Source: a virus. From it: a stretch of DNA of 21,940 bases. The notes beneath the pieces were generated by a model that was not told the origin of the DNA, ran no database searches, and saw only the letters and a list, made by a program, of their open reading frames with translations. Shown piece by piece: positions 3,414-21,940 of the stretch. Within the stretch, counting starts at the first letter, position 1, and every line of letters starts with the position of its first letter. The DNA is taken from IMG/VR virus record IMGVR_UViG_3300028536_000037, positions 1 to 21,940 of that record; one strand, given 5' to 3'. The translations under genes and the position numbers were made by a program.

Positions 3414-4650
3414 GCCGATGCGCTACAAAGGCGCGTTTGGCGGGCGCGGATCGGGAAAGTCGCATTTCTTTGCGGAATTGCTGGTGGAGAGCTGCTTGCG
3501 TGATCTCGGTATGCGGGCTGTCTGCATTCGCGAGTACCAGAAGTCGTTGGCGCAATCGAGCAAGCACCTGATCGAGACGAAGATCGAGCAGCTTGGCGTG
3601 GGACGAGACTTCAACGTCACGAAGGACAATATCGGCACGCCTGGTGGCGGCGTGATCCTCTTCCAGGGCATGCAAGACCACACAGCGGAGACCATAAAGT
3701 CGCTGGAGGGTTGTCGCATTGCCTGGATCGAGGAGGCTCAGACGCTCAGCGCCCGCAGCTTGGCAATGCTGCGGCCGACGATCCGCGCCGACGAAAGCGA
3801 AATCTGGGCCAGCTGGAATCCGCGGCGCAAGTCTGACGCGATCGACGAATTCCTACGGACGCTGAGGCCAGATAGCGCCGTCGTCGTCGAGGCCAATTGG
3901 CGTGACAATCCTTGGTTCCCCAAGGTGCTCGAGGAGGAGCGAAAGCTTGATCTGGAGAAATATCCGGATCGTTACGAGCACATCTGGGAAGGCGACTACG
4001 CCAAAGCATTCGAGGGAGCCTACTTCGCCAAGGGCCTTGCGGAAGCCAAGGCGCAAGGCAGGATAGGCCGTGTGTCGGCTGACCCGCTGCTCCCACTGCG
4101 GGCGTTTTTTGATTTGGGCGGCTCTGGTGCTCAGGCCGATGCCATGTCGATCTGGATTGTGCAGTTCGTCGGGCAGGAAATCAGGGTGCTCGATTATCTC
4201 GAAGGTGTCGGGCAGGTCTTGGCCTACTACGTGAGCGAGCTTCGTACGCGGGGATATGCAAAAGCGGTCTGTGTTCTGCCGCATGATGGCGTGAACGAGA
4301 ACAACATCACCGGCAAGCGCTACGAGGATCATCTCCGCGACGCTGAGTTTGAGGTTGATGTCGTCAAGAACCAGGGCAGGGGCGCCTCGGCCATGCGGAT
4401 CGAGGCCGTGCGGCGCATTTTCCCGAAGTGCTGGTTCAGCGATAAGACGACCGAGGCCGGCCGTGATGCACTTGGCTACTACCACGAACGCAAGGATGAG
4501 ACGCGCAACGTTGGCCTTGGTCCTGAGCATGACTGGTCGTCTCATGCATCGGACGCTTTCGGCCTGATGGCGATTGCGTATGAGCAACCGCAGGTCAACC
4601 GCGAAGAGCGTCGGCGCCGGGTTGCGCACGGCGGTTGGATGGGAGCCTGA
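3358..4650 (+). CDS. terL: Terminase large subunit (ATPase/nuclease packaging motor)
   Basis: With the GTG start at 3358 the protein has 430 residues. Walker A GGRGSGKS is at 28-35, Walker B IAWIEEA at 121-127 and a coupling motif SWNP at 152-155. The C-terminal RNase H-like nuclease domain begins at FFDLGG (first Asp about 252) and ends with DWSSHASDAFG. It drives DNA into the prohead and cuts the concatemer. The frame is open upstream to an ATG at 3307 (447 residues), but those extra residues are not family-like. Homologues normally begin shortly before the VFRPLLEPMRYKGAFGGRGSGKS stretch. GTG 3358 has AAAGA six bases upstream; TTG 3352 is an alternative. It overlaps terS by 56 bases. Confidence 0.93.
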   Translation: MSSSTLKIPTARVFRPLLEPMRYKGAFGGRGSGKSHFFAELLVESCLRDLGMRAVCIREYQKSLAQSSKHLIETKIEQLGVGRDFNVTKDNIGTPGGGVILFQGMQDHTAETIKSLEGCRIAWIEEAQTLSARSLAMLRPTIRADESEIWASWNPRRKSDAIDEFLRTLRPDSAVVVEANWRDNPWFPKVLEEERKLDLEKYPDRYEHIWEGDYAKAFEGAYFAKGLAEAKAQGRIGRVSADPLLPLRAFFDLGGSGAQADAMSIWIVQFVGQEIRVLDYLEGVGQVLAYYVSELRTRGYAKAVCVLPHDGVNENNITGKRYEDHLRDAEFEVDVVKNQGRGASAMRIEAVRRIFPKCWFSDKTTEAGRDALGYYHERKDETRNVGLGPEHDWSSHASDAFGLMAIAYEQPQVNREERRRRVAHGGWMGA

Positions 4651-4651
4651 G

Positions 4652-4888
4652 ATGCAGAAAACCGGAGCCCAAGTCGCCGAGCGCGATGCCCATATGCAAA
4701 ACGCGGCGGACTACGCGGTGCAGGTCTGCGATGCAGCTGAATTGCGCGGGCTCACAGGCTATCAGGTTGCGGTTTCTTTCGCCTCTGTGCTCGCCGCTCG
4801 CAATCCCACGCTTGCCGGCAAGGTTCTGGTCGCCGTGATGGATGCCATCCAGCGACAGCCGATCACCAACATTGCCAAGGTCAACTGA
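4652..4888 (+). CDS. Small hypothetical protein between terminase and portal
   Basis: ATG 4652 lies one base after the terL stop, with GGGAG seven bases upstream. The frame extends upstream to 4574 inside terL, but the Shine-Dalgarno sequence decides for 4652. The 78-residue product begins MQKTGAQVAE, is alanine-rich and mostly helical, with a mildly hydrophobic middle (GYQVAVSFASVLAARNP). I do not recognise a family. Confidence 0.65.
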   Translation: MQKTGAQVAERDAHMQNAADYAVQVCDAAELRGLTGYQVAVSFASVLAARNPTLAGKVLVAVMDAIQRQPITNIAKVN

Positions 4889-4889
4889 G

Positions 4890-5096
4890 ATGGCAAAACT
4901 CACAGCAGGCCAGCGCAAGAAACTTCCGGCCAGCATATTCGGCTTGCCGGGCAAGCGAGCCTATCCCATGCCAAATCGCACTCACGCGGCGAATGCCAAG
5001 AGCCGTGCATCCGAAGAACTGTCCGCCGGCAACCTGACCCAATCCGAGCACGACGCCATCGTACGTAAGGCTGACCGGATCCTGTACGGGCCCTGA
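4890..5096 (+). CDS. Small conserved phage protein of the MAKLTAxxRxxLP type
   Basis: The 68-residue protein begins MAKLTAGQRKKLPASIFGLP, continues with RAYPMPNRTHAANAKSRA and ends in a basic helix (EHDAIVRKADRILYG). The same N-terminal pattern recurs in small proteins beside portal or head genes of many phages of Proteobacteria (DUF6582-like, from memory). Its role is unknown; the high charge would suit a nucleic-acid or capsid contact. The start at 4890 is one base after the preceding stop, and its TGA overlaps the portal ATG (TGATG). Confidence 0.7.
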   Translation: MAKLTAGQRKKLPASIFGLPGKRAYPMPNRTHAANAKSRASEELSAGNLTQSEHDAIVRKADRILYGP

Positions 5097-7432
5097 TGGC
5101 GAAGAACCGCAAGCGCCAACCGCAGGCAGACGAGCCAGCGGACAGCGAAGCTGCGCCCGAGGAGGACAAGAAGGCCACGGCCGACACTGCCGACGACGAC
5201 ATGCACGCCGAGGCCATCAAGCGCTACGAGCGCGGGTGGGAACGCGACCGCAAGAACATGGAGCGGGCGTACGAGGATTTGCGCTTCCTCGCCGAGGAGG
5301 GGCAATGGGAAGACCGGGCCCGCCGGGAGCGCGAGGCTGAGGGTCGCCCGATCCTGACGGTCAACAAGTGCCCGCAGTTCGTGCGCCAGGTCACCGGCGA
5401 CATGCGGCAGATGCGACCGGCAATCAAGGTCGTGCCGGTCGACGATGCCGCCAGCCAGCAAGTGGCGGACAAAATACTCCCGGGCATGATCCGCTATATC
5501 GAGCGGCGCTCGGATGCGGCGGCGGCATATTTCAATGCGGCCGATAGCCAGGTCGGCGCCGGAATCGGTCATTGGCGGGTCCTGCGGGAGTACGCCAGCA
5601 ACACGACGTTCAACCAGGAGCTTCGCATCGCGCCGATCGAGGATGGCGTAGCTGTGGTCTGGGACCCGGATTCGATCCTACCAACCCGCGATGATGCGAT
5701 GTGGTGCTTCGTCCCGGTCGACATGAGCCGAGCGGCGTTCGAGGAGAAATATCCCGACAAGAGCGGCGATGCGCTGCCGAGCGTGCCGGCGCTGTTCCAT
5801 TCGTGGTTCACCGAGGATCATGTTCGGATCGCGGAATATTTCTACAAGGAGGCCGAGAAGCATACGCTGGCGATGCTCCCCGACGGATCGATTGTCGATA
5901 TCACGGATATGGAGCCCGGCGACCCGCAACTCCTCGACGTCATGATCCAACAACCCGACATCGAGGAGCGAGACGGCTTCTGTGTCTATCGGTGCGTGAT
6001 CTCAGCCAGCGATGTGATCGAGGAGCCAGAGAAAGAGCCCGGCGCGTTCATCCCGATCGTTCCTCTACTCGGCGAAGAGATCAAGATCGGCCGTGAGGTC
6101 ATCCGCCGCGGTGTGGTGCGGGCGCTCAAGGACGTGCAGCGGCTGTACAACTATGCGATATCGGCCGATGCCGAGGTTGTCGCGCTGCAGCCGAAGGCGC
6201 CTTACAAAGGCACGCGCAAGAACTTCGAGAAATATCAGGATCAGTGGGAGACAGCCAACAGCAGGAATTGGCCGTATCTCGAATATGAGCCTGATCCCAC
6301 GAATGGCGGGGCTGCTCCACAGCGGGAACCACCCCCGCTTGCGTCATCCGGCATCAAGGACTTGCTTGCTGTTTCATCGGCCGACATGAGCGCGGTGACT
6401 GGCATCTATCCGTCATCGCTCGGCCAGGCCTCGAACGAAACCAGCGGCAAGGCCATCATGGCCCGCCAGCGGGAAGGGGACACTGGAACCTACGTCTATG
6501 TCGATAACTTCGGCCGCGCTATCCGACGCACCGCGCAAATCCTGATCGACCTGATTTCGCACGTCTACGACACCGAGCGCACGATCCACATCGTCGGCGA
6601 GGACGGCAAAGTCGACATCATGAAGATCAACCAGGCGCAGCTGGACCCGAACGGGGATGGCATTGCTACAAACGTTCTCAACGATGTGACGATCGGCGCC
6701 TATGAGGTCGCGGTCGAGATGGGCCCGAGCTATTCGACCAAACGCGAGGAGGCCCGCGACGGCATGCAGGCGCTGATGCAATCGCTCGGCCCGCAGTCTG
6801 CGCTGATGTTCTCGGACCTGTTCGTGAAGTCGCAAGACTTCCCCTTGGCCGACAAGATCGCCAAGCGTGCGCAGCTATTGTTGCCTCCGCAAATCCAGCA
6901 GATGGAGGCCCAGGAGGCCGGCGAGCCGCCACCTCCGCAGATGCCGCCGCCACCTCCCACGCCTGAGCAACAGGCCGAGATGGCGAAGATGCAGCAGGAG
7001 GGCCAATTCAATCAAGCCCGACTGCAAATTGATAGCCGCAAGATCGACGCCGAGATGGCGAAGGTGAATGCCGAGCTTGAGAAGGCCCGCCTGGACCATA
7101 CGGCCACGATGGCCGGACATGCTGTGTCGGCCAGAGCGGCCGAGATGGGCGCGCAGGCCGCACAAACTCCACAGGAGCCCGCGCAGGACCCGCGCGTTGA
7201 CGAATTGGCCCAGGCCGTCATGCAGCTACGCGACATCGTTGTCGCACTGGCGCAGGCTGTACAGGGCAATGGAGGGCCACCGCCTGATGCTGGACCAAAT
7301 CCTATTCCATTTGGGATGACGCCACCGCCTGGAGCGCCGCCCGGTCCCGGGCCCCAATCGCCGATGCCCCCAGCCCCGCCGCCGAGCGGGGTTTTTGCTG
7401 CGCCTGTACCGCAAGGAGCCCTGATCCGATGA
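5096..7432 (+). CDS. Portal protein, P22 gp1-like
   Basis: The 778-residue protein is slightly longer than P22 gp1 (725). It has an acidic, probably disordered N-terminus, then the portal core with WEDRARREREAEGRPILTVNKC (about residues 71-92), the MRQMRP and VWDPDS segments, and a conserved SSLGQASNETSGKAI region. The C-terminal part holds a long helical stretch (from about 620) flanked by proline-rich runs. Twelve copies form the ring at the capsid vertex through which DNA enters and leaves. In P22 the C-terminal helices build the barrel inside the head, and the helical segment here is probably the counterpart. ATG 5096 overlaps the preceding stop, and the gene's own stop overlaps the next start (ATGA). 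Confidence 0.93.
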   Translation: MAKNRKRQPQADEPADSEAAPEEDKKATADTADDDMHAEAIKRYERGWERDRKNMERAYEDLRFLAEEGQWEDRARREREAEGRPILTVNKCPQFVRQVTGDMRQMRPAIKVVPVDDAASQQVADKILPGMIRYIERRSDAAAAYFNAADSQVGAGIGHWRVLREYASNTTFNQELRIAPIEDGVAVVWDPDSILPTRDDAMWCFVPVDMSRAAFEEKYPDKSGDALPSVPALFHSWFTEDHVRIAEYFYKEAEKHTLAMLPDGSIVDITDMEPGDPQLLDVMIQQPDIEERDGFCVYRCVISASDVIEEPEKEPGAFIPIVPLLGEEIKIGREVIRRGVVRALKDVQRLYNYAISADAEVVALQPKAPYKGTRKNFEKYQDQWETANSRNWPYLEYEPDPTNGGAAPQREPPPLASSGIKDLLAVSSADMSAVTGIYPSSLGQASNETSGKAIMARQREGDTGTYVYVDNFGRAIRRTAQILIDLISHVYDTERTIHIVGEDGKVDIMKINQAQLDPNGDGIATNVLNDVTIGAYEVAVEMGPSYSTKREEARDGMQALMQSLGPQSALMFSDLFVKSQDFPLADKIAKRAQLLLPPQIQQMEAQEAGEPPPPQMPPPPPTPEQQAEMAKMQQEGQFNQARLQIDSRKIDAEMAKVNAELEKARLDHTATMAGHAVSARAAEMGAQAAQTPQEPAQDPRVDELAQAVMQLRDIVVALAQAVQGNGGPPPDAGPNPIPFGMTPPPGAPPGPGPQSPMPPAPPPSGVFAAPVPQGALIR

Positions 7433-7737
7433 GTAAGCTTTACATCACTGAATTCTCTCGGCTCGGCATATCCAGTAATGGCGGCACGGCACAGATCATG
7501 GATTTCGATTCAGTCGTCACCGTCCAGCCGCCGATCGATTACAGCGCTGGCGCCGCGCAGTCTGCCGCCATCTCTGATGGGACGCGTTATGTCCGGGTTG
7601 AGACGGATGCCATTTGCTCGATCAAGTACGGATCGAATCCGACAGCCACGACGAACGATCAGCGCATGGCCGCAGGCGATGTTGAACACTTCTACGTTAG
7701 CCGCGGCAACAAAATTTCCGTAATCACGAACACCTAA
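7429..7737 (+). CDS. Small beta-rich virion protein
   Basis: The 102-residue protein begins MSKLYITEFS. It alternates short hydrophobic strands and polar turns (RYVRVETDAICSIKYGSNPTATTND, then EHFYVSRGNKISVITN), the look of small head-decoration or head-completion proteins found after the portal in rhizobial podophages. The start is set by AAGGAG at 7413-7418 and the ATGA overlap with the portal stop. It is the last gene before a non-coding gap with a terminator, so it closes the first late block. The assignment as virion component is from context and fold impression. Confidence 0.65.
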   Translation: MSKLYITEFSRLGISSNGGTAQIMDFDSVVTVQPPIDYSAGAAQSAAISDGTRYVRVETDAICSIKYGSNPTATTNDQRMAAGDVEHFYVSRGNKISVITNT

Positions 7738-7880
7738 ACGCCGGCCGTCGGTCGTTTTGGCCGTGACGGAGCAGGATAGCTGACAGTTTCCCAACTTCGG
7801 GCACGCCGTCGCATGACGCGATGGCGGCCACGATGACCCACGCCGCCTTCGGGCGGCTTTTTTCGTGAGCAGACACCAAC
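7738..7880 (+). promoter_or_regulatory. Intergenic leader with two hairpins before the scaffold gene
   Basis: This 143-base gap is the longest inside the late operon. CGCCGTCGC (7804-7812) pairs with GCGATGGCG (7818-7826) around ATGAC, with one G-U pair. Sixteen bases further lies the intrinsic terminator described separately. The first hairpin has no U-tract. Together they look like a control point between portal and capsid genes, but I see no clear promoter here. Confidence 0.4.
7842..7863 (+). terminator. Intrinsic terminator between the portal block and the capsid block
   Basis: A perfect stem GCCGCC (7842-7847) and GGCGGC (7852-7857), closed by a TTCG tetraloop, is followed directly by six T (7858-7863). 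It lies 17 bases before the scaffold ATG, so transcription of the capsid genes must either read through it or start between it and the gene. Confidence 0.85.
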
Positions 7881-8771
7881 ATGGATGATTCCCAGCTCGA
7901 TGCAGAGCTGGCGGCCCTCACCGGCACGCCGGCGGAAAAGAGCAAACCATCTGAGGCCGACACCAAGGGCAACGAGCCCGAGACAGAGGCCGAAACAGAG
8001 ACAGACGAAGAGGACACCGAAGCCGAGGCCGAGGAATCCGACGCTGGCGATAACGCCGGCGAGGAGGAGGAGGCTGACGGCGAGGAGTCCGAGGACGAGA
8101 AGAAGGACGAGCGGCCCAAGAAGAAACTCAGCGGATCGGAGCGGCTGAAACGCCGTCTTGCTGCTGCTGAGGCCGAACTCGCATCCGTACGCAGCCGCCC
8201 GGCTCAGTCCGAAGCGGATGTTGCGTCGGAGGTCGAGCGGATCATCGGCAAGCCGCCGAAAGAGGAAGAATACAAGGGCGACTACCTCGCCTTTGAACGG
8301 GCGCAGACGGCTTACGAGCTCGACAAGCGCCAGGTCACGAGAGAGGTCAAAGGCCAAGCTCAGCGGCAGGAAGGCCTTCGGGCTGAACGCCGCCGTGACA
8401 TGGCCGAAGCGCACCAGGATCGCGTCGAGGAATTTCGCGGAAAAGCGAAGGACTTCGACACCATTTTGAAAGGCGCCGGCGACCTCAAAGCGAGCCCGAC
8501 GGTCGAGGACCTGATCCTCGATTCCGACAAGAGCGCGCATCTCGTCTACTTCCTCGCCAAGAACCCGTCCAAGCTTCATGCGCTGAACGATATGAGCGAG
8601 CGCCAAGCCGCACGCGAGATCGGGCGCATCGAGTCAACGCTGTCTCTGCCGCAACCCAAAACGAAGACAAAGGCTCCCAAGCCCGTCACGCCTCCAAAGG
8701 GTGGTGCTGCGCCGTCATCGCCTGATCGCGATCTCGATACCTGGCTCAGCAAAACCTACGGCAAGAAGTGA
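7881..8771 (+). CDS. Capsid scaffolding protein (P22 gp8-like by position and build)
   Basis: The 296-residue protein is close in length to P22 gp8 (303). It has a very acidic first quarter (glutamate- and aspartate-rich, about residues 20-80), then long charged helices with coiled-coil character (about 85-200), and a small basic C-terminal tail ending WLSKTYGKK. A helical, highly charged protein directly before the major coat gene is the hallmark of a scaffold, whose C-terminal basic segment contacts the inner coat surface. Sequence identity among scaffolds is low, so the call rests on build and position. The start ATG 7881 has only a weak upstream GTGAG. Confidence 0.82.
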   Translation: MDDSQLDAELAALTGTPAEKSKPSEADTKGNEPETEAETETDEEDTEAEAEESDAGDNAGEEEEADGEESEDEKKDERPKKKLSGSERLKRRLAAAEAELASVRSRPAQSEADVASEVERIIGKPPKEEEYKGDYLAFERAQTAYELDKRQVTREVKGQAQRQEGLRAERRRDMAEAHQDRVEEFRGKAKDFDTILKGAGDLKASPTVEDLILDSDKSAHLVYFLAKNPSKLHALNDMSERQAAREIGRIESTLSLPQPKTKTKAPKPVTPPKGGAAPSSPDRDLDTWLSKTYGKK

Positions 8772-8781
8772 CGTGCCCGGA

Positions 8782-8805
8782 GCCATAGCCACAAAGGGCT
8801 ACGGC
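8782..8805 (+). promoter_or_regulatory. Hairpin abutting the coat start codon and overlapping its ribosome binding site
   Basis: GCCATAGCC (8782-8790) pairs with GGCTACGGC (8797-8805) with a single A-C mismatch and an ACAAAG loop. The weak Shine-Dalgarno-like AAAGGG (8793-8798) sits at the loop and 3' arm, eight bases before ATG 8807. The structure could modulate translation or protect the messenger of the most abundant virion protein. Confidence 0.4.
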
Positions 8806-8806
8806 A

Positions 8807-10081
8807 ATGGCTAATACCATCCTCAATCCGACCATCATCGCGAAAGCGGCGGTGCGCATTCTCGACAATGAGCTGGTCATGGCAAAGCGCGTGTATCGCG
8901 CCTACGAAGACGAGTTTGCCAAGAAGGTCAACGGCTACGACGTAGGCGACACGATCTCGATCCGCAAGCCAAATCAGTTCACCGTCAGAAACGGCGCCAT
9001 TGCGACACCGATTCAGGACGTGACTGAAGGTAAGTTGACGATGCAGGTCGCCACTCAGCGCGGCGTTGATTTCAAGTTCACCTCGGCAGAGCTGACCTTG
9101 AAAATCGAAGAACTCGCCGAGCGTGTAATGAAACCCGCCATGGTGCAGCTTGCCAACGATGTCGACCGGGCCGTGATGGCGGAATATATCCGTATCCCGA
9201 ACTGGGTCGGCCAGCCTGCAACCGGCCTTGACACGCCGATCTCTACGTTCGTCGCATTCGCCCGCGGCGCTGAGCGGCTCGACCAGTTTGCAGTTCCGCA
9301 GGATGAGCGTTCTGCGGTTCTCAGCCCCGAGTCCTATTGGGCGCTGGCTGGCTCGCAGACTGCCTTGTTCGTCAACTCCATCGCCAATCCGGCATATCGG
9401 CGCGGCGAGATCGGCGAGATCGGCGGAGTAGCAACGTACATGTCGCAGAACGTTCCGACTTATGTCGGCACCACTGCGAACGATGACGCCGCGACGGTCA
9501 CCGGCACCCAAAGCACGACTTATGCGGCGGTGCAGAATACCGAGTCGGTTCCTGGCACCATGTCGCTTATCACGGGCGGCTGGGGTGCGACGGATCTGAT
9601 CCGTGCGGGCACTGTATTCACGATCGCGAACGTGTTTGCGGTTAACCCGGTCACCAAAGCCACGCTGCCGTTTTTGCAGCACTTCACGGTGCTGGCGGAT
9701 GTCACCGCGGTGGCAAGCGCTGCGACGCTTACCATCACTCCGGCGATTATCCCGTTCACCGGCTCCGAAGCGTTTGCGTCCACCAATGCTGCGGCTATCG
9801 GCGGTGCGGCGATTGTCGTTGCGGGTGCGGACAGCGCTTCTTATCGGCAAAACCTCATGTTCCACAAGAATGCATTCGCCCTGTGTGTGGTGCCGATGGT
9901 GAAGCCGCCGGGCGCGGTTGACGTGGCACGAGAGTCCTACAAGGGACTGAGTGTTCGCGTGATCCCGTACTACGACGGCACCAATGACGTGTCGAACTTC
10001 CGTCTCGACATTCTCTATGGAACCAAGACGATTGACCCGCGGCTCGCGGTTCGCATGAGCGGCGGCGCCGGCACGATCTAA
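8807..10081 (+). CDS. Major capsid (coat) protein, P22 gp5-like
   Basis: The 424-residue protein is nearly the length of P22 coat (430). It begins MANTILNPTIIAKAAVRIL and carries the long-helix segment (LVMAKRVYRAYEDEF), the VGDTISIRKP strand region and FTSAELTLKIEELAERVMKPAM, all typical of P22-type HK97-fold coats. The middle (about 215-335) is a strand-rich, alanine- and threonine-rich region that probably corresponds to the inserted domain of P22 coat. Hundreds of copies build the icosahedral shell. It is followed by a terminator-like hairpin. Confidence 0.92.
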   Translation: MANTILNPTIIAKAAVRILDNELVMAKRVYRAYEDEFAKKVNGYDVGDTISIRKPNQFTVRNGAIATPIQDVTEGKLTMQVATQRGVDFKFTSAELTLKIEELAERVMKPAMVQLANDVDRAVMAEYIRIPNWVGQPATGLDTPISTFVAFARGAERLDQFAVPQDERSAVLSPESYWALAGSQTALFVNSIANPAYRRGEIGEIGGVATYMSQNVPTYVGTTANDDAATVTGTQSTTYAAVQNTESVPGTMSLITGGWGATDLIRAGTVFTIANVFAVNPVTKATLPFLQHFTVLADVTAVASAATLTITPAIIPFTGSEAFASTNAAAIGGAAIVVAGADSASYRQNLMFHKNAFALCVVPMVKPPGAVDVARESYKGLSVRVIPYYDGTNDVSNFRLDILYGTKTIDPRLAVRMSGGAGTI

Positions 10082-10901: not shown

Positions 10902-12334
10902 TGGTCGGCCCCGCCAACGTTCCGTTCCCATTGTCGACGGCGCCAGGGAGTCGTCCGCAAGAATCAGCCGGTAGAATTTTAAATGCGTACGTCGAACCCC
11001 TGACCGACGGAGCGCCGTCGGGTCGCAAGTACGTTCGGGCTCCAGGCCTGCGTAACTTCGGAACCACAAGTAGGTCAGGCTATCGCGGATCGATCGAGAT
11101 AGCGGGCATCCTGTACAGCGCCTTCAACGGCCAGATGGAGAAGCACACCAGCGTGGGTGGGGCATCGACTAATGTTGGCGCGCTCAACGGCACCAAGAAG
11201 GGGTTTTTTGCCCGCAACAATGCAGTGACGCCGGATCAGGTGTTCTGCGATCCCGACGGTAATATCGCGGTGTTCACGTCGTCGAGCGTCACCAACAGCT
11301 ATCCAGACCCGGATTTGCCTGCGGTCAATTCGGTCTGCTCGATCGATGGCTATCTCGTGTTCACGACCGGGAATGGCCGCGCATACGCGACGGATCTGAA
11401 TTCGACCTCGGTCAACGCCCTGTCGTTCGGCACGGCTGAGTCCAAGCCGGACGGGTTGGTCCGGTGCATCCCATATGCAGGACAGCTGTGGCTGTTCGGC
11501 GGCTTCACCACTGAGGTCTGGGCGGACGTGGGGACAATCCCGTTTCCGTTCCAGCGGTCGGTCGTGATACCGCGCGGGCTTGCCGGACCATACTGCATTG
11601 CCGGTCAGGAGGACGCGTTCGGGCGCGCTCTCGTCTGGATCGGTGATGACAGTGCGGTCTATCAGCTCAACGGCTACACGCCGGACAAGATCAGCTCGCC
11701 CGACATTGATGCGTTGATCGAGGCGGTGACGGACAAGACCCAGCTTGAGGTGTCGGTCTACATCTCCCGCGGCCATGGGATGGTGCAGATTTCATCGACA
11801 ACCTGGACATGGGTGCTCGACCTCAATACCTCGAAATGGTCGGAGCGCAATAGCTACGGCCTGACGCGATCGCGCATTATTGGCGGGATCAATGCGTTCG
11901 GATCGAAATGGCTCTGTGGGGATAGCCAGACCGGCAACATTCAGGAGATCACCAGCGCGGTCTTTAGCGAGGTACTCAGTCCGTTTCGGATGCGATTGGA
12001 AAGCGGCGCGGTGGAGAAGTTTCCCACGGGCGCCCGGATCGGACGAGCGGATTTCAGTTTCGTCACCGGAGTAGGGCAGGCATCCGGAACCGATCCAATC
12101 CAGACCAACCCGACCGTCGAGATATCGTGGTCCGATGATGGCGGCCAGACATGGTCCGCGCCGATCCAGCGTAAGCTTGGCAGACAGTCCGAAACGCGCG
12201 ATCTGGTGTCGCTGGTGGCGTGCACGGGCCGATCGAGCTGGAACGGCCGGCGCTGGCGGATAGACGTGGCAGACCCGGTATACGTCGGGTTCCTTGGGGC
12301 GACGCAAGCTGAAGACCCGCGGGTGATCGGCTGA
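10901..12334 (+). CDS. Packaged-DNA stabilisation protein, P22 gp10-like tail hub
   Basis: The 477-residue protein almost equals P22 gp10 (472). The N-terminus (PFPLSTAPGSRPQESAGRILNAYVE) is characteristic of this family. The body is a run of beta-blade-like repeats (FTSSSVTNSYPDPDLP, GYLVFTTGNGRAYATDL, QLWLFGGFTTEVWADVG, ALVWIGDDSAVYQLNGYTPDKIS). The C-terminus holds TVEISWSDDGGQTWSAPIQRKLG. In P22 a hexamer of gp10 closes the portal below gp4 and holds tailspikes and needle. Start and stop both overlap neighbours (TGATG), so translation is coupled with the genes on each side. Confidence 0.9.
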   Translation: MVGPANVPFPLSTAPGSRPQESAGRILNAYVEPLTDGAPSGRKYVRAPGLRNFGTTSRSGYRGSIEIAGILYSAFNGQMEKHTSVGGASTNVGALNGTKKGFFARNNAVTPDQVFCDPDGNIAVFTSSSVTNSYPDPDLPAVNSVCSIDGYLVFTTGNGRAYATDLNSTSVNALSFGTAESKPDGLVRCIPYAGQLWLFGGFTTEVWADVGTIPFPFQRSVVIPRGLAGPYCIAGQEDAFGRALVWIGDDSAVYQLNGYTPDKISSPDIDALIEAVTDKTQLEVSVYISRGHGMVQISSTTWTWVLDLNTSKWSERNSYGLTRSRIIGGINAFGSKWLCGDSQTGNIQEITSAVFSEVLSPFRMRLESGAVEKFPTGARIGRADFSFVTGVGQASGTDPIQTNPTVEISWSDDGGQTWSAPIQRKLGRQSETRDLVSLVACTGRSSWNGRRWRIDVADPVYVGFLGATQAEDPRVIG

Positions 12335-12813
12335 TGGCTGGCGCGAAGAATGCCATCCCGAAGCCAAGCGTGGCGCTGATCGACTTACAAACCGCGTTGG
12401 TTCGAAAGGACTGGTTCGACTTCTTCAGCAGCATTGCCGTTTTGCTCAACGGCGGATCGCTCCTCACGCAGGCAGTGACCGATACGCTCTACGAAAAGCT
12501 CGGGCTAAGCCGCGGCGTCAATACGCAAACCGGGAACTACACGCTGGTTCTGGCCGACCAAGGAAAAACGATCGAGATGAACGTGGCAGGCGCGAACACG
12601 CTGACCATCCCGCCGAATGCGTCGGTGGCGTTCCCGATCGGAGCCTGGATGAACATTGTGCAGGTCGGGGCAGGGCAGACCACGATAACGGCCGGCGTCG
12701 GTGTTACGCTTCGAACTCGCGTCGGTCCCAAGCTCATCTCGCAGTGGGCGATGGCGACGCTGTATCAGCGCGTGGCGAACGAATGGGTGGCAGGAGGCTC
12801 CCTGAGCGCCTGA
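12334..12813 (+). CDS. Small beta-rich virion protein, tail-fibre-domain-like
   Basis: The 159-residue protein has a helical N-terminus (IDLQTALVRKDWFDFFSSIAVLL) followed by a compact beta domain: TGNYTLVLADQGKTIEMNVA, then ANTLTIPPNASVAFPIG, the VGAGQTTITAG turn and a final strand. This second part matches a domain seen in many phage tail-fibre and capsid-attached proteins, probably a jelly-roll-like fold. It occupies the place of the P22 needle gene 26 but lacks the long triple coiled coil, so it is not an obvious gp26. It overlaps both neighbours by one base. Confidence 0.7.
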   Translation: MAGAKNAIPKPSVALIDLQTALVRKDWFDFFSSIAVLLNGGSLLTQAVTDTLYEKLGLSRGVNTQTGNYTLVLADQGKTIEMNVAGANTLTIPPNASVAFPIGAWMNIVQVGAGQTTITAGVGVTLRTRVGPKLISQWAMATLYQRVANEWVAGGSLSA

Positions 12814-13466
12814 TGTTTGAGCCCGGGTTTCTTGAAGGGGGCGCTGTTAAGATCACCAAGACGGACAGCGGAGCTGTCAACGGAGGAACGTACAACTTCG
12901 GTTCGTCAGCGAACGATCGCATCATTCTTGCGGCGGTGGCGGTTTACACAGGAATCGCCAACAACGTCACTGGCTGCACGATTGCAAGTAATGCAGCCAC
13001 GCTTGTGGTATCACGCTTCGTAACAACTAATCCAGGATTCACGCCATGGGTTGGCATCTGGGCTCTGGCTGTTCCATCTGGCACTAGCGGCGTAGTTACT
13101 ATTTCCGCTTCGGGGGCAATCGGCGCCATTGGCATTGGTATTTACGCCATGAATGGTGCTGGCGGTTTAACGCCATTCAATACCAATACTGGTTATAGCG
13201 GAAACGCAGTTGCATCGGTTTCTTCTAGCATCAATATTCCTTCGGCCGGAATTGCGCTTGCCGTTGCAGGCAATGGGGCTGGCAGCTTGCCAAGCTATAC
13301 ATGGACTGGGGGCTTGGCAGAGGATTTGGATTTTGGCGCCAATTCCACCAGCGGGTTTACTACCGGTGCGTCGTCGACGACAGGATCAAATAGCATAACG
13401 GTATCGGCCTCTGCGATTGCAAGTAACGTCGGGGTAGCTTTGGTTGCAGCGAGTTGGGGACCATAG
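12813..13466 (+). CDS. Hypothetical glycine/serine/alanine-rich beta protein, probably virion surface
   Basis: ATG 12813 overlaps the preceding stop (TGATG) and gives 217 residues. The sequence is almost entirely short strands rich in Gly, Ser, Ala, Thr and Asn (RIILAAVAVYTGIANNVTG, SGVVTISASGAIGAIGIGIYAM, the final SNVGVALVAASWGP), with hardly any charged residues after the first 40. It looks like a beta-sandwich decoration or adhesin-type domain; I recognise no family. The DNA is visibly richer in A and T than its neighbours, suggesting later acquisition. An AGGAGG lies 15 bases before the ATG, rather far. An upstream in-frame ATG at 12783 is possible. Confidence 0.65.
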   Translation: MFEPGFLEGGAVKITKTDSGAVNGGTYNFGSSANDRIILAAVAVYTGIANNVTGCTIASNAATLVVSRFVTTNPGFTPWVGIWALAVPSGTSGVVTISASGAIGAIGIGIYAMNGAGGLTPFNTNTGYSGNAVASVSSSINIPSAGIALAVAGNGAGSLPSYTWTGGLAEDLDFGANSTSGFTTGASSTTGSNSITVSASAIASNVGVALVAASWGP

Positions 13467-16992: not shown

Positions 16993-17949
16993 ATGGCCGG
17001 TTCTATCAGCCTCTCAGGCTCCCAGCAATTCGACCAAGACGGAGTGCCGTTGTCTGGCGGCCTATTTTATACCTTCGCTGCTGGAACCACCACTCCTCAG
17101 AGCTGCTTCCAGGACATCGCGCTCACCATTGCGTATCCCAATCCAATAACCCTCCTTGCCGATGGTAGAATTCCGTTTTTCAACCTCGCGGACGGCAATA
17201 TCAAAATCCGTCTGACCGATAAGAATGGCGTCACTGTAATTGCCGCTGACAACATCCTGGTTGTCGGCCCTTCGTCTGGTGGAGGCGGCGGAGGCGGCGT
17301 CGATCCGACGACGGTCTTCCAAACCGGTGACCTCAAGAACCGTTACGTCAACAGCACGCACACCGGATGGGTGCGTTGCAACGGGCGAACGGTTGGCTCG
17401 GCAAGCTCGGGAGCGGCCGAGCGCGCGAATGCCGATGTGCAGGCATTGTTTGAATTCCTGTGGGGCGCTGATCCCAATCTGACCGTGTCAACTGGCCGTG
17501 GCGCATCCGCAAACGCAGATTGGCTCGCGAACAAAACCATCACGCTTCCAGACTTCCGTGGCCGTGTGCTCGCTGCCCTTGATGACATGGGCAATTCGGC
17601 GGCAGGTCGCGTCACGTCAGGCGGCTCCGGTATCACCGGCACGACCCTTGGCGCCGCAGGTGGCGCGCAGGCCGTGACGCTTAACGCCACCATGATCCCG
17701 CCCATTCCGGTCACCATTCCTGCCAACCAGGGCTCTCACGGCCACCCGGGCAGCACGGCTCCGTTTGCTATCTCGAATCAAACCCAAGCCGGCTCGGACA
17801 GCGCGAAGGCAAGCTCGGGATCAACGGGCATCACGATTGCCGCAAATACGCTCCCGGCGATGACAGGCACCGGCAACAATGGCGTAACGGCTGCGGCTGT
17901 CAACAAAATGCCGCCCGCAGCTATCGTCTCTATTTTCATCAAGCTGTAG
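16993..17949 (+). CDS. Tail collar / tail fibre protein
   Basis: The 318-residue protein has a virion-attachment-like N-terminal domain (MAGSISLSGSQQFDQDGVPLSGG, then LADGRIPFFNLADGNIKIRLTD), common in tail fibre genes of rhizobial phages. A glycine hinge (seven Gly, about residue 97-103) follows, then a tail-collar-type domain with GWVRCNGRTVGSA, LTVSTGRG, the hallmark ITLPDFRGRVLAALDDMG and a serine/glycine-rich end finishing PPAAIVSIFIKL. Collar-domain proteins form trimeric fibres or adaptors. GGGAAAA lies shortly before the ATG, downstream of the terminator. Confidence 0.85.
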   Translation: MAGSISLSGSQQFDQDGVPLSGGLFYTFAAGTTTPQSCFQDIALTIAYPNPITLLADGRIPFFNLADGNIKIRLTDKNGVTVIAADNILVVGPSSGGGGGGGVDPTTVFQTGDLKNRYVNSTHTGWVRCNGRTVGSASSGAAERANADVQALFEFLWGADPNLTVSTGRGASANADWLANKTITLPDFRGRVLAALDDMGNSAAGRVTSGGSGITGTTLGAAGGAQAVTLNATMIPPIPVTIPANQGSHGHPGSTAPFAISNQTQAGSDSAKASSGSTGITIAANTLPAMTGTGNNGVTAAAVNKMPPAAIVSIFIKL

Positions 17950-17957
17950 GGGCGCAC

Positions 17958-18314
17958 ATGTTCGTCGGCACCTTGGCGGCGGTCTCAAATCGAGAGGACT
18001 GGAACTTCTTTCTCGAGATGGCCGATCCGGCGACGAACACAGCGATCGACCTGACAGGCGCATCAATCGACATTGCGGTGCGCGCTCAGGACAATCGAAA
18101 TCCCGCACTAACCGGATCACTCGCTGATGGAAAAATCACCATTGTCGGAGCGGCGACAAACGGAACGGCCGAGATACTGTTTTCAGAGACTGATATGGCG
18201 ACGCTGTGCGCTGGTCAATATGACGTTGGCATTCGGGTGACGATGGCGACCGGCAGGAAATTTCAATTGCTTACCGCGATGCTCCCCGTGGTCCACGGAG
18301 TGGTGAGCGCATGA
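17958..18314 (+). CDS. Small beta-sandwich-like virion protein
   Basis: The 118-residue protein begins MFVGTLAAVSNREDWNFFLEM, followed by strands LTGASIDIAVRAQDN, GKITIVGAATNGTAEILF and a final GIRVTMATGRKFQLLTAMLPVVHGVV. The pattern resembles the N-terminal immunoglobulin-like domains of baseplate or fibre proteins (BppU-like in general look, not demonstrated). Wedged between collar and spike, and sharing ATGA with the spike start, it is probably an adaptor or assembly factor for the spike. Confidence 0.7.
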   Translation: MFVGTLAAVSNREDWNFFLEMADPATNTAIDLTGASIDIAVRAQDNRNPALTGSLADGKITIVGAATNGTAEILFSETDMATLCAGQYDVGIRVTMATGRKFQLLTAMLPVVHGVVSA

Positions 18315-20161
18315 GCCTCACCCCTTACCCTACGCTCAGGCTCAAGGTCACGCCTGCGCCGTCGATCAAGGTGCGAGTGCTGCCGAGCTTTTCCGCCACG
18401 CTGACCGGCTCCGATCCGATCGTCGTCGACAACAACGGCGGGAACTATCAGATCGGCCTCGATATTCCCTCCCTTCTTGGGCAGATCGCTGATGCTTCTG
18501 CCGCTAGACAGACGTTGACGGCGGATCGGACTTATTACGTTCGCCCCATTGACGGAGACGATTCAAGCAGTGGTCTGGAAGACCTGCCCGGGCTGGCATT
18601 TCAGACCTTGCAGCATGCGTGGGATGTGATCGAGACGACGCTTGACCGCGGCCAGTTTGCGGTCAACGTGCGGGGGGGCGACGGCACCTATGGTGCCGGT
18701 GTGATCGCGCTCGGCCCTGGCATCGGAAGCGGGCTGATTTCATTTCTGGGCAACCTGTCCACGCCCACCAATTGCAAAGTGAATAGCTCCGCTGAAGCTT
18801 TCATGGCGATCAACGGCGCCCGCTTCAAGGTGGATGGGTTCGAAATCGCCGGCGTCAACGCGTGTATCGAGGCTGCAAACCAGGGGCAAATTATCGCCGG
18901 GTCGAATATTCGGTATGGCGCCTGCAGCTTCTATCAAATCCGGGCGGTCAATGAGGGCTTTGTCGATATACAAGGCTTTTCCTGGTCTGTCATCGCCAGC
19001 GCTGCGGCCCATATTAATGCGGCGCTCGGCGGCGTCGTGAACATGAACGGGTCAACGATCAATATCCCGCTGGGGGTGATCGGCTTCACTTCCTTTGCGA
19101 AGGTAGACCGGGGCGGCATTCTCTACGCTGGCGGCGTGACGATCAACAATTCCGGCACTGTAACAGGTGCGCGCTTCAGCCTTACCAGTGGCGGTCTAAT
19201 CGATACCGGAGGTCTTGGGCTGAACCTCTTCCCAGGCAATTCCGCGGGGACCGGCGACGGCACCGGTATCTACGATGGCGTGATCATTGGGACGCAGACG
19301 ATCAATACCAACAGCGCTGCGCCGCCGTCGCCTGTATCCGGAACCATTCAGCATTTAGTTGGCGCCGGCTTCTCCGGCCAATTTCTCAGCACCTGGGCGA
19401 GCTTGCCTTTCGTCTTTGGACGCCGCGCCGAAGGAAGCATCGCTTCGCCGAGCGCAGTGCAGAGCGGTCAAAATTTGCTTTATCTCGGCGGTCTTGGTTA
19501 CGGTACGACTTACGCGACAATTGCCGGTGTCGGCATCGGTCTGCAGGCGGCAGAGAATTGGAGCGCATCCGCGCAAGGCACTAAGATCGTCTTTCAAACG
19601 ACGCCGCTCGGCAGCACAGCAGCGGCAGACGCGGCGTATATTGGCGCAGATAAGAGCTTTCAGCCTGTTGGCCGGCTCGATCTGAGCAGCGCAACTTCCG
19701 GCCAGATCAAGTTCCCTGCAACGCAGAATCCATCGAGCGACGTGAACACGCTTGACGACTACGAGGAGGGGACGTGGACGCCGTCATTCACATTTCAGAC
19801 GCCGGGTGATCTTGCCGTCACCTATGGAGTCCAGCTTGGGACATACACAAAGATTGGAAATGTGGTCGTCGCGACATGCCGCATTCAAACATCGGCATTC
19901 ACCTATACGACTGCATCAGGAGCGGCTTTAATCAATGGATTGCCATTCACGGCCGGCGGCATTCAGGGCTATTTCGGAATGAGATGGCAGGGCGTGACCG
20001 CCGCAGGATATACCGATCTGCTTGCGACTCCTGGGATAGGAACGGCGCAGCTTTCATTGCGGATGTCAGGCTCGGGGCAAGCTGTTATCATTCCGTCTAC
20101 GACGCAGATTGCCAGTGGCGGGTCCATTCAATTCGAAGGGACCGGAAGCTTCACGGTTTAG
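18311..20161 (+). CDS. Tailspike with right-handed beta-helix
   Basis: The 616-residue protein has a short N-terminal attachment region (TLRLKVTPAPSIKVRVLPSFSA, then GGNYQIGLDIPSL). From about residue 74 to 330 follows a beta-helix of regularly repeating short strands (TYYVRPIDGDD, LISFLGNLSTPTNCKV, AFMAINGARFKVDGFEI, IRAVNEGFVDIQGFSW, GDGTGIYDG). A central part follows and then a C-terminal domain starting at TLDDYEEGTWTPSF that recurs in many tail fibres. Such spikes bind and usually cut or deacetylate surface polysaccharide. No catalytic residues can be named with certainty. Its beta-helix is collinear with the minus-strand exported protein encoded at 20546-21439. Confidence 0.88.
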   Translation: MSLTPYPTLRLKVTPAPSIKVRVLPSFSATLTGSDPIVVDNNGGNYQIGLDIPSLLGQIADASAARQTLTADRTYYVRPIDGDDSSSGLEDLPGLAFQTLQHAWDVIETTLDRGQFAVNVRGGDGTYGAGVIALGPGIGSGLISFLGNLSTPTNCKVNSSAEAFMAINGARFKVDGFEIAGVNACIEAANQGQIIAGSNIRYGACSFYQIRAVNEGFVDIQGFSWSVIASAAAHINAALGGVVNMNGSTINIPLGVIGFTSFAKVDRGGILYAGGVTINNSGTVTGARFSLTSGGLIDTGGLGLNLFPGNSAGTGDGTGIYDGVIIGTQTINTNSAAPPSPVSGTIQHLVGAGFSGQFLSTWASLPFVFGRRAEGSIASPSAVQSGQNLLYLGGLGYGTTYATIAGVGIGLQAAENWSASAQGTKIVFQTTPLGSTAAADAAYIGADKSFQPVGRLDLSSATSGQIKFPATQNPSSDVNTLDDYEEGTWTPSFTFQTPGDLAVTYGVQLGTYTKIGNVVVATCRIQTSAFTYTTASGAALINGLPFTAGGIQGYFGMRWQGVTAAGYTDLLATPGIGTAQLSLRMSGSGQAVIIPSTTQIASGGSIQFEGTGSFTV

Positions 20162-20177: not shown

Positions 20178-20549
20178 ATGATCGAAAAGAAAACCATCGT
20201 CGATCAGATCGAGGTGGCAAGGTCCGGGTTCATCCAGATTCGCTTTGGTCTGCTACTGATCGACGATGGTCAAGAGATCGACTGCAAGTGGCATCGAACA
20301 TCGATCGAGCCTGGCGGCGACGTGGATGCGCAGATTGCTGCGGTGAACGCGCATCTCGCTCAAATGGGAAAGGCTGCTGTGGATACTGACCGGATCGAGG
20401 GCATCAAGAAGATCGCTGCAACGGTGCATACCTCTGAGCTGGTCGATCAATACAGGAAAGCTAGGGACGCAGCGCTTTCGGTTGACGACGAGTTGGGCGG
20501 TCCTGGTGCTCCAGCTCGGACGGCGTCGCCGCAGGATCGCCGGCGTTAG
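20178..20549 (+). CDS. Conserved small phage protein after the tailspike
   Basis: ATG 20178 with GGGAAGG upstream gives 123 residues beginning MIEKKTIVDQIEVARSG. It has a compact N-terminal beta part (IQIRFGLLLIDDGQEIDCKWHRT) and a helical second part (DVDAQIAAVNAHLAQMG, then EGIKKIAATVHTSELVDQYRKAR) and a charged tail. The same protein type occurs next to tail-fibre genes in many alphaproteobacterial phages; a tail-fibre assembly or chaperone role is a reasonable guess only. Its stop TAG overlaps the stop of the convergent minus-strand gene. Confidence 0.72.
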   Translation: MIEKKTIVDQIEVARSGFIQIRFGLLLIDDGQEIDCKWHRTSIEPGGDVDAQIAAVNAHLAQMGKAAVDTDRIEGIKKIAATVHTSELVDQYRKARDAALSVDDELGGPGAPARTASPQDRRR

Positions 20550-20559
20550 TTCAACGCCG
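20541..20559. terminator. Hairpin spanning both convergent stop codons
   Basis: CGGCGTT (20541-20547) and AACGCCG (20553-20559) form a perfect 7-bp stem with a five-base loop that contains parts of both stops. It is symmetric and could serve as a bidirectional terminator, but neither side has a U-tract, so an intrinsic terminator is not certain. Confidence 0.4.
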
Positions 20560-21439
20560 CGGCTTCACCAACAATCGTCCCGTCGTAGTTGCCGGTCCCG
20601 TCTCCGACGCCCGGTTTGTCGCCCGGAAAGAAGTCGCGGCCCTGATCGCCAGTCCAAATGGTGCTTCCGGTAACGACCATGAAGCGCGCGCCCATGACTT
20701 CGCCGTTGCGCTCGGCTTTGGCCTCGTTGGCGTTCACGATCGAGGACCGATCAGCGAGCGCGAAGGTCTCAAATGTGTGGCGCCCCGGCGCGATGGCGAT
20801 CGTCGATCCAAACAGGTTTATGGTGGAGCTGATCGCGGCGTTGATGCTCGCTTTGCCGGCGCCGCCTGCAATAAGGTATCGGGTCTTTTGCGCGCTCACA
20901 AAGGCATGGTTGACGGCGCGCATGTGATAAAGGGCGCTGGGGCCGAAGATCACCGACTGCCCGACCATTGCCGTGCCAAAATCAGCCGCCTCGACGGCCG
21001 CATATTCGGCTTGGATCTCCATCCCAGCGACCTGAAAGCGAGCATAGTTGCGAGCCATGAACGCCTCCTTCGGCGGCGCGAACTTGACCTTCGAAGGCTC
21101 ACGCAGATTGCCGACGAAGGTGACCAGTCCCGCGCCCGTCTGCGGCCACATCGCATCGAGGCCCACATTGTATTCGCCGTCGGCGATCTGCACCTCGACG
21201 TCGTGGCCCGCGAGATCGAGACAATTGGCGATGAAGCTCCATGCCTGCTGCGGGGACGGGAAGGCTTCGCTTTGGCTGCGCGCGCACGTGGCGTAATCGC
21301 TCCCGCCAGCAGAGATGAAATAGGCCCGATTGCTCGAGAGCCTATCGCGGTGATCAATGGCAGCGCTCGGCCGCAAGGATAAAACCAGAGCCGCTATGGC
21401 CACGGCAAAGGCCGCGATGGCAAGCGCGCGGTATATCAA
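20546..21439 (-). CDS. Exported tailspike-like beta-helix protein (candidate lysogenic-conversion gene)
   Basis: On the minus strand a TTG start at 21439 (a TGA two codons upstream excludes a longer frame) gives 297 residues. Residues 1-27 form a signal peptide or anchor: Arg4, a hydrophobic run (ALAIAAFAVAIAALVLSL) and a possible cleavage at SAA. From residue 38 to about 291 the protein follows the tailspike beta-helix block by block: GLVTFVGNLREP, EAFMARNYARFQVAGMEI, HMRAVNHAFVSAQ, SINAAISSTINLFGSTI and GDGTGNYDGTIVGE. The spike's attachment and C-terminal fibre domains are missing. It is the only credible leftward gene in the window, so it probably has its own promoter; TATTAT (minus strand, 21510-21505) is a weak -10 candidate. 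A role in changing the lysogen's surface against related phages is inference; a stray bacterial polysaccharide enzyme is the alternative. Confidence 0.85.
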   Translation of the reverse strand: MIYRALAIAAFAVAIAALVLSLRPSAAIDHRDRLSSNRAYFISAGGSDYATCARSQSEAFPSPQQAWSFIANCLDLAGHDVEVQIADGEYNVGLDAMWPQTGAGLVTFVGNLREPSKVKFAPPKEAFMARNYARFQVAGMEIQAEYAAVEAADFGTAMVGQSVIFGPSALYHMRAVNHAFVSAQKTRYLIAGGAGKASINAAISSTINLFGSTIAIAPGRHTFETFALADRSSIVNANEAKAERNGEVMGARFMVVTGSTIWTGDQGRDFFPGDKPGVGDGTGNYDGTIVGEAAALN

Positions 21440-21590: not shown

Positions 21591-21827
21591 ATGGCTGCGA
21601 AGATTACCCCGCAGATGCTGCGTCCGCTGTGGCCGCGCGCCTCGCAGCAAAAGATCGACGCCATCGTGATGACGGCGCCAGCGCGGTGCTGGCAATGCTC
21701 TTGTTCCCGCCGCCGCTGGCGACCTGACATGCTGTGCGCGATCGTCGTCGCCGTTCTCTTCATGGCCCTTGTCGCCATCATCGGCGGCATTGCGTGGCTC
21801 GGCTGGCAAATCCTGTTCGGGCGCTGA
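21591..21827 (+). CDS. Short ORF: endolysin-like (GH19) N-terminus joined to a membrane segment, probably a deletion remnant
   Basis: ATG 21591 has GGAGGGGG upstream and yields 78 residues. The first 31 (MAAKITPQMLRPLWPRAS, then QQKIDAIVMTAPA) resemble the beginning of GH19 chitinase-type endolysins of Rhizobiales phages, which continue about 170 residues more with catalytic glutamates; that part is absent. After an arginine- and tryptophan-rich junk-like stretch, the last 32 residues (from ATG 21729: MLCAIVVAVLFMALVAIIGG, then IAWLGWQILFGR) form a clean single membrane helix. That segment could be an independent 32-residue membrane peptide: its ATG is one base after a TGA in another frame (21725-21727) that closes a stretch reading SAVLAMLLFPPPLAT. 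The likeliest story is an internal deletion in a lysis region. Similarity to GH19 is from memory. Confidence 0.45.
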   Translation: MAAKITPQMLRPLWPRASQQKIDAIVMTAPARCWQCSCSRRRWRPDMLCAIVVAVLFMALVAIIGGIAWLGWQILFGR

Positions 21828-21858: not shown

Positions 21859-21940
21859 GGCCGCACCCTGGGCGCCGACAAGGGCTATGACGCAGCGGCA
21901 TTCGTCGCCGACATGCGCGGGCTCAACGTGACGCCGCACA
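21859..21940 (+). mobile_element. IS5-family transposase fragment, 5'-truncated, running off the window
   Basis: From 21859 the frame reads G-R-TLGADKGYDAAAFVADM, then RGLNVTPH to the window end. This is the DKGYD region of the catalytic domain of IS5-type transposases frequent in rhizobia. The N-terminal two thirds of such a protein are not upstream; instead the unrelated membrane ORF ends 31 bases before. The element is therefore a remnant or a recombination junction, and probably marks the right limit of the intact phage sequence. The continuation beyond 21940 is not visible. Confidence 0.75.

Follow-up and report, generated by a model that had tools for sequence, protein, structure and literature searches.

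A gene lying between the tailspike and the contig end of a P22-like phage encodes a second version of the beta-helix of that spike, in which a signal-like N-terminus stands where the spike has its presumed virion-attachment part. We give about an even chance to the reading that this gene, here called wExp, serves lysogenic conversion: the duplicate of the resident spike helix, exported instead of attached to the virion, would act on the polysaccharide recognised by the spike and so exclude other phages at the level of adsorption. The homology to the resident spike, a second, independent case in a Devosia phage-plasmid, and the genes that relatives carry at the same position are the main evidence.

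wExp and its surroundings

The window analysed is a whole virus contig of 21,940 bases. The genes on its plus strand for terminase, portal (phrog_156), coat (phrog_283), Hc3 connector, collar-like tail protein and spike belong to the late region of a short-tailed phage of P22 type. As the preliminary description had claimed, wExp runs against these late genes; the plus strand holds every called gene of the window apart from it. The features of the right-hand part are as follows.

16993..17949, plus strand: collar-like tail protein (phrog_8763), the anchor for sampling the equivalent locus elsewhere
18311..20161, plus strand: resident tailspike, 616 aa, after the collar gene, with C-terminal matches to the tail fibres of other phages
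20178..20549, plus strand: small gene of unknown function (phrog_6228), directly after the spike
20546..21439, minus strand: wExp, an exported-looking copy of the spike beta-helix, 297 aa, TTG start
21864..21940, plus strand: fragment of an IS5 family transposase, at the end of the contig (blastn, 79–85% to IS5-bearing records)

wExp is a true coding gene. A codon model trained on the late genes of related loci accepts it on the minus strand, with a score of 70, but none of the plus-strand ORFs that overlap it. wExp and the small phrog_6228 gene meet tail to tail, their stops overlapping by 4 bp, and the same 4-bp overlap is found in three of the sampled loci (L330, L408 and L410). The IS5 piece makes up the final 77 bases of the contig, 425 bp past wExp. 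An ORF at 21591–21827 begins MAAKITPQMLRPLWPRASQQKIDAIV and ends in a membrane segment; its start presumably resembles GH19-type endolysins, it has no database match, and it could be what is left of a disrupted lysis region beside the IS5 element. A scan at wExp returned no consensus promoter, such a scan being uninformative for this host.

No family was assigned to wExp by Pfam, PHROGs or NCBIfam, a search of the PDB by sequence gave no match, and a peptide-pattern search of viral contigs and genomes yielded no close relative. The same phage is present in a second sample, an 8.3-kb contig from another metagenome (L310) whose terminase-to-Hc3 proteins are 99–100% identical to those of the window. 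That contig covers the left part only, and wExp is known from one contig.

wExp is a sister of the resident spike helix

Aligned by BLASTP, residues 31–291 of wExp match residues 66–327 of the spike with 102 of 263 columns identical (39%), 3 gap columns, 164 bits and an E-value of 1e-50. By this comparison the similarity of the two proteins is far above the chance level, which bears out the earlier claim of a helix copy; the range first given on the spike, residues about 74–330, was close, the actual start being residue 66. The parts concerned are:

18311..18505, plus strand: spike residues 1–65, presumed virion-attachment part, missing from wExp (BLASTP)
18506..19291, plus strand: spike residues 66–327, beta-helix, sister of wExp (BLASTP; tree support 0.991)
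20567..21349, minus strand: wExp residues 31–291, right-handed beta-helix domain (BLASTP, AlphaFold2, VIA-align)

wExp has no counterpart of spike residues 1–65 or 328–616, the presumed attachment part and the C-terminal trimerisation region, so that the loss of both, as originally described, stands. Judged by eye, spike residues 1–65 resemble a motif, LKIKVLPKP..FPANV, at the N-terminus of the spikes and adapter genes of related phages. Since both end regions are missing, wExp is not a virion spike, though it may act as a spike module, and since the C-terminal region is lost, a spike-like trimer is uncertain. In a FastTree phylogeny of 177 helices, wExp is the sister of the window spike, which indicates that the duplication involved the resident spike itself; an origin of wExp as a host-derived enzyme was considered and is ruled out by the same tree. 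Four acidic residues, E125, E141, E150 and D230, are common to spike and wExp and rare in the helix family.

N-terminus, fold and cysteines

Two further features were marked on wExp itself.

21359..21439, minus strand: signal-like N-terminus, residues 1–27, with a hydrophobic run at 5–22 and a possible signal peptidase I site SAA/ID
21221..21286, minus strand: Cys52-to-Cys73 stretch, a possible disulfide between the only two cysteines of wExp

The first 27 residues read LIYR-ALAIAAFAVAIAALVLSL-RPSAA/ID, comprising a basic n-region, an uncharged run of 18 residues and an S-A-A c-region. The composition suggests a signal peptide or anchor, and residues 2–21 are predicted by AlphaFold2 as a single helix; both fit the N-terminal signal or anchor initially proposed. 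The AlphaFold2 model, made from an input alignment of 62 sequences, has a pLDDT of 92.9 and a pTM of 0.86, and shows this N-terminal helix followed by a right-handed beta-helix. Compared by VIA-align, the model matches, at Z 13–17, polysaccharide enzymes of beta-helix fold and tailspikes, including Fri1 gp49 (15.7) and CBA120 TSP2 (13.4). The high Z values come from VIA alone, as Foldseek against the PDB gave nothing at E <0.001. The best named match in BFVD is the fibre of Acidovorax phage ACP17 (TMq 0.76, rmsd 2.9). The model of the full spike, with a pLDDT of 45 from a diluted alignment, is too poor for superposition on wExp.

The pair Cys52 and Cys73 is absent from all other helices among the 62 aligned, and none of the three cysteines of the spike helix is retained in either wExp or the exported copy from Devosia described below. 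This pattern in wExp would be compatible with an oxidising destination.

A second exported-looking copy beside its own spike

The helix domain is widespread: in Rhizobiales genomes and in phages it forms the C-terminal part of tail-fibre proteins and of DUF2793-type proteins. The gene transfer agent RcGTA has DUF2793 as its tail fibre protein (PMC10883770). Among 250 helix frames, a signal-like segment stands directly before a phage-type helix in only two distinct genes, wExp and a gene of Devosia sp. SL43. The signals seen in L154–L165 are those of large secreted proteins of bacteria, which match chiefly in the N-terminal cap. A signal acquired on wExp by chance was rejected as an explanation, no other phage-type helix of the 250 frames than the Devosia copy having one.

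The Devosia gene lies on a circular phage-plasmid of 44,650 bp (NZ_CP063402) with HK97-type head and long-tail genes. The exported-looking copy (WP_236900037), at 3415–4680, is 14 bp downstream of its own spike gene (4695–6980), shares the late-gene strand with it and stands just ahead of a GH108 endolysin. The N-terminus of this copy, SRRRALQSLVAGSAAAGLSAIATPARA/EQ, resembles a Tat signal. The helix is 49% identical to that of the Devosia spike, and over its final 79 residues the copy shares 57% identity with the spike end, while the identity to wExp is 25%. In the tree of 177 helices the Devosia copy pairs with the Devosia spike (support 0.999). As each copy is the sister of its own spike, the pairing either arose twice or gene conversion has kept the members of each pair alike. 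The late-gene orientation of the Devosia copy fits expression at lysis better than expression in lysogeny.

Absence of a conserved pairing of spike and exported homologue in related prophages had been named as a ground for refuting the idea. The nearest related prophages examined have no such pair; what was found instead is an independent recurrence in the unrelated siphovirus-type phage-plasmid of Devosia.

Spike paralogues often occur in tandem within this helix family. One phage contig (L244, 1578–7350) has a spike array of six tandem beta-helix genes. On two rep_cluster_252 plasmids, from Tateyamaria (L090, 3317–4735) and Parasedimentitalea (L007, 4497–5591), a gene combining DUF2793 with the same beta-helix lies immediately upstream of a dTDP-rhamnose cluster, thus placing a fibre of gene-transfer-agent type beside surface-sugar genes.

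Relatives carry surface-modifying genes in the same inverted position

Relatives were sampled as prophages with a related portal in Xanthobacteraceae genomes and as viral contigs anchored on the collar gene. Their presence in Xanthobacteraceae and Rhizobiaceae genomes is consistent with the label 'rhizobial' that the phage had been given. Between spike and lysis genes, relatives carry single minus-strand genes oriented like wExp. A simple marker search counted such an inverted gene in 9 of the 26 loci whose spike and lysis genes share a contig, under a rule that missed L344; upstream of the collar gene, inverted genes number 3 of 502 sizeable genes.

The slot gene is an Acyl_transf_3 protein in L391, L408 and L410 (in L410 together with SGNH) and a methyltransferase, known by family and not by substrate, in L329, L330 and L344. 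In L328 it is similar to the O-antigen ligase family Wzy_C, at 30.6 bits just under the curated cut-off of 31.7. Pfam gave no family for the slot genes of L351, L384, L403 and L382, of which, on inspection by eye, those of L384 and L403 seem to encode multi-spanning proteins. P22-like prophages typically carry an O-antigen acetylase, one of them just downstream of the tailspike (PMC3303846), and gtrABC of P22 modifies the O-antigen and thereby blocks adsorption (PMC10883804). Since relatives hold surface-modifying genes in the same inverted slot, wExp sits in a slot for surface conversion, and its position is that of a lysogenic conversion gene among the morons of this group.

Signal-peptide tail fibres in the late operon

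Ten or more further loci encode proteins with a textbook Sec signal (e.g. MNIIRLLKVASAAFFFVLGPAAAQ/NPG) followed by mosaic tail-fibre repeats common to virion fibres and by variable ends. These genes lie in the late operon, and most are start-stop coupled to an adapter gene of 168–185 aa. The tail-fibre-like proteins with such a Sec-type signal peptide (..AQNAGTVTNHAFAIGKGPG) are encoded at:

L328, 5578–7257, minus strand
L344, 12360–14012
L373, 11821–13293
L385, 11841–13082
L392, 2430–4253
L394, 11801–13603
L399, about 12054–13433
L403, about 7370–9724
also in L339, L364 and L374

Exported fibre-like proteins thus recur in this phage group. Their recurrence supports the idea of export in general, and at the same time raises the alternative that exported spike modules act in the release of progeny.

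Discussion

The reading that we prefer runs as follows. The receptor-binding beta-helix of the prophage would have been duplicated, with the virion-attachment part swapped for an export signal. wExp would then be expressed in the lysogen and its product exported at least as far as the periplasm, where any Sec or Tat substrate stops unless a further step carries it out. Once exported, the protein would act on the surface polysaccharide recognised by the spike, most likely by trimming it, or else by occupying it as a lectin. With the receptor reduced or altered on the lysogen, phages with the same spike would adsorb less, and the outcome would be superinfection exclusion. We favour trimming over masking on two grounds: most of the fold neighbours are enzymes, and the four acidic residues, rare in the family, are common to spike and copy. 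The argument from these residues is weak in view of the recent common ancestry of the two proteins. The suggestion of the preliminary description, that the prophage exports a receptor module, is in this way partly upheld: the exported-looking spike homologue, the duplication of the resident spike, the Devosia case and the surface-gene slot speak for it, and the lack of conserved pairing in the nearest prophages speaks against it.

Two other functions could be served by an exported helix. It may be a receptor-destroying protein whose removal of receptor polysaccharide, at a late stage of infection, keeps new virions from sticking to the dying cell and its debris. The Devosia copy, following its spike on the same strand just ahead of the endolysin, would suit this role, as would the signal-peptide fibres of the late operon in ten or more phages of the group, mostly adapter-coupled. 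wExp, however, is oriented against the late genes, at a position that relatives use for conversion genes, and for this gene we consider the explanation unlikely. Alternatively, wExp could be a moron of benefit to the host, an exopolysaccharide-modifying enzyme for biofilm or symbiosis traits in the manner of WceF, with no role against phages. Exported exopolysaccharide hydrolases of tailspike fold are indeed known as bacterial genes (PMC7949094) and the fold of wExp would fit, but the tree places wExp with the resident spike and not with a host enzyme, and the slot is otherwise occupied by glycan-changing genes. We hold this to be decidedly unlikely.

A copy without a function of its own, either a truncated duplicate kept as a recombination donor for the spike or one decaying near IS5, seems to us a shade less probable again. 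The IS5 piece close to the gene and the frequency of tandem spike paralogues in the helix family point that way, whereas 297 codons have stayed open at 39% identity with a strong codon bias, a signal has been gained, the cysteines have been rearranged, and Devosia offers a parallel. Finally, a homologous inverted module adjoining the spike recalls one half of an invertible tail-fibre segment of the Mu or P1 type, with wExp as the alternative spike module. Against this, wExp has its own start and signal and does not have the C-terminal fibre part, and no invertase is seen in the partial contig. A pair of inverted repeats resembling recombination sites was looked for and rejected, the longest being 26 nt at 73%. 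This last explanation is very improbable.

Returning to conversion, the closest known systems are the O-antigen conversion genes of P22-like phages (oac of Sf6, gtrABC of P22 and the acetylase downstream of the O104 tailspike), which alter the polysaccharide of the spike. Like oac-type genes, wExp adjoins the tailspike, and related phages keep such genes in the same inverted slot; it differs in being not a transferase but a signal-bearing copy of the spike's beta-helix. Changes of the receptor made by prophages through transferases are thus already known, and wExp would be a variant of them that uses an exported spike copy. Virion tailspikes and fibres with this helix (DUF2793-type proteins, the ACP17 fibre) share the beta-helix domain with wExp, but have an attachment or DUF2793 N-domain and no export signal.

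That an exported tailspike fold can work on the producing cell is illustrated by WceF of Pantoea stewartii, which is exported by Tat and cleaves the producer's own exopolysaccharide (PMC7949094). The likeness lies in the tailspike-type beta-helix of wExp and in the Tat-like signal of the Devosia copy. WceF, however, is a bacterial protein of 736 aa encoded in an exopolysaccharide cluster, a trimer with head and neck domains, and its stable trimer required its N-terminal domains (PMC7949094), whereas wExp has 297 aa, consists of signal and helix only, and lies in a prophage without P22-like head or neck domains and without an exopolysaccharide cluster. In the Foldseek list for wExp, WceF (6tgf) stands at rank 35 with an E-value of 1.7, and it is not among the best 50 VIA matches listed, so that the fold gives no specific link to it.

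Secreted exclusion proteins include Cor and Llp. The Ltp lipoprotein of TP-J34 is likewise a prophage-encoded exported protein that excludes superinfection at the cell surface (PMC3952083). In the open PMC literature no paper was found on an exported copy of a resident spike, in agreement with the earlier remark that this is not an established system. We know of no secreted superinfection-exclusion protein that duplicates the receptor-binding protein of its phage. A parallel would be offered by retroviral envelope proteins, which act in receptor interference.

It is possible, though we would put it somewhat below an even chance, that temperate phages repeatedly turn exported copies of their own receptor-binding spikes against a shared receptor, the window and Devosia being two independent inventions and the signal-peptide fibres a late-expressed branch. 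The exported tail-fibre proteins of rhizobial phages form an unexplained class, which we flag here. If the conversion reading is true, an exported spike copy would be a simple and directly evolvable route to an exclusion that is otherwise achieved with sugar transferases, and its specificity would automatically track that of the resident spike. The prediction is that spike and exported copy have a common ligand, and the combination of a signal with a spike module adjoining the spike would provide a signature by which all prophages could be screened.
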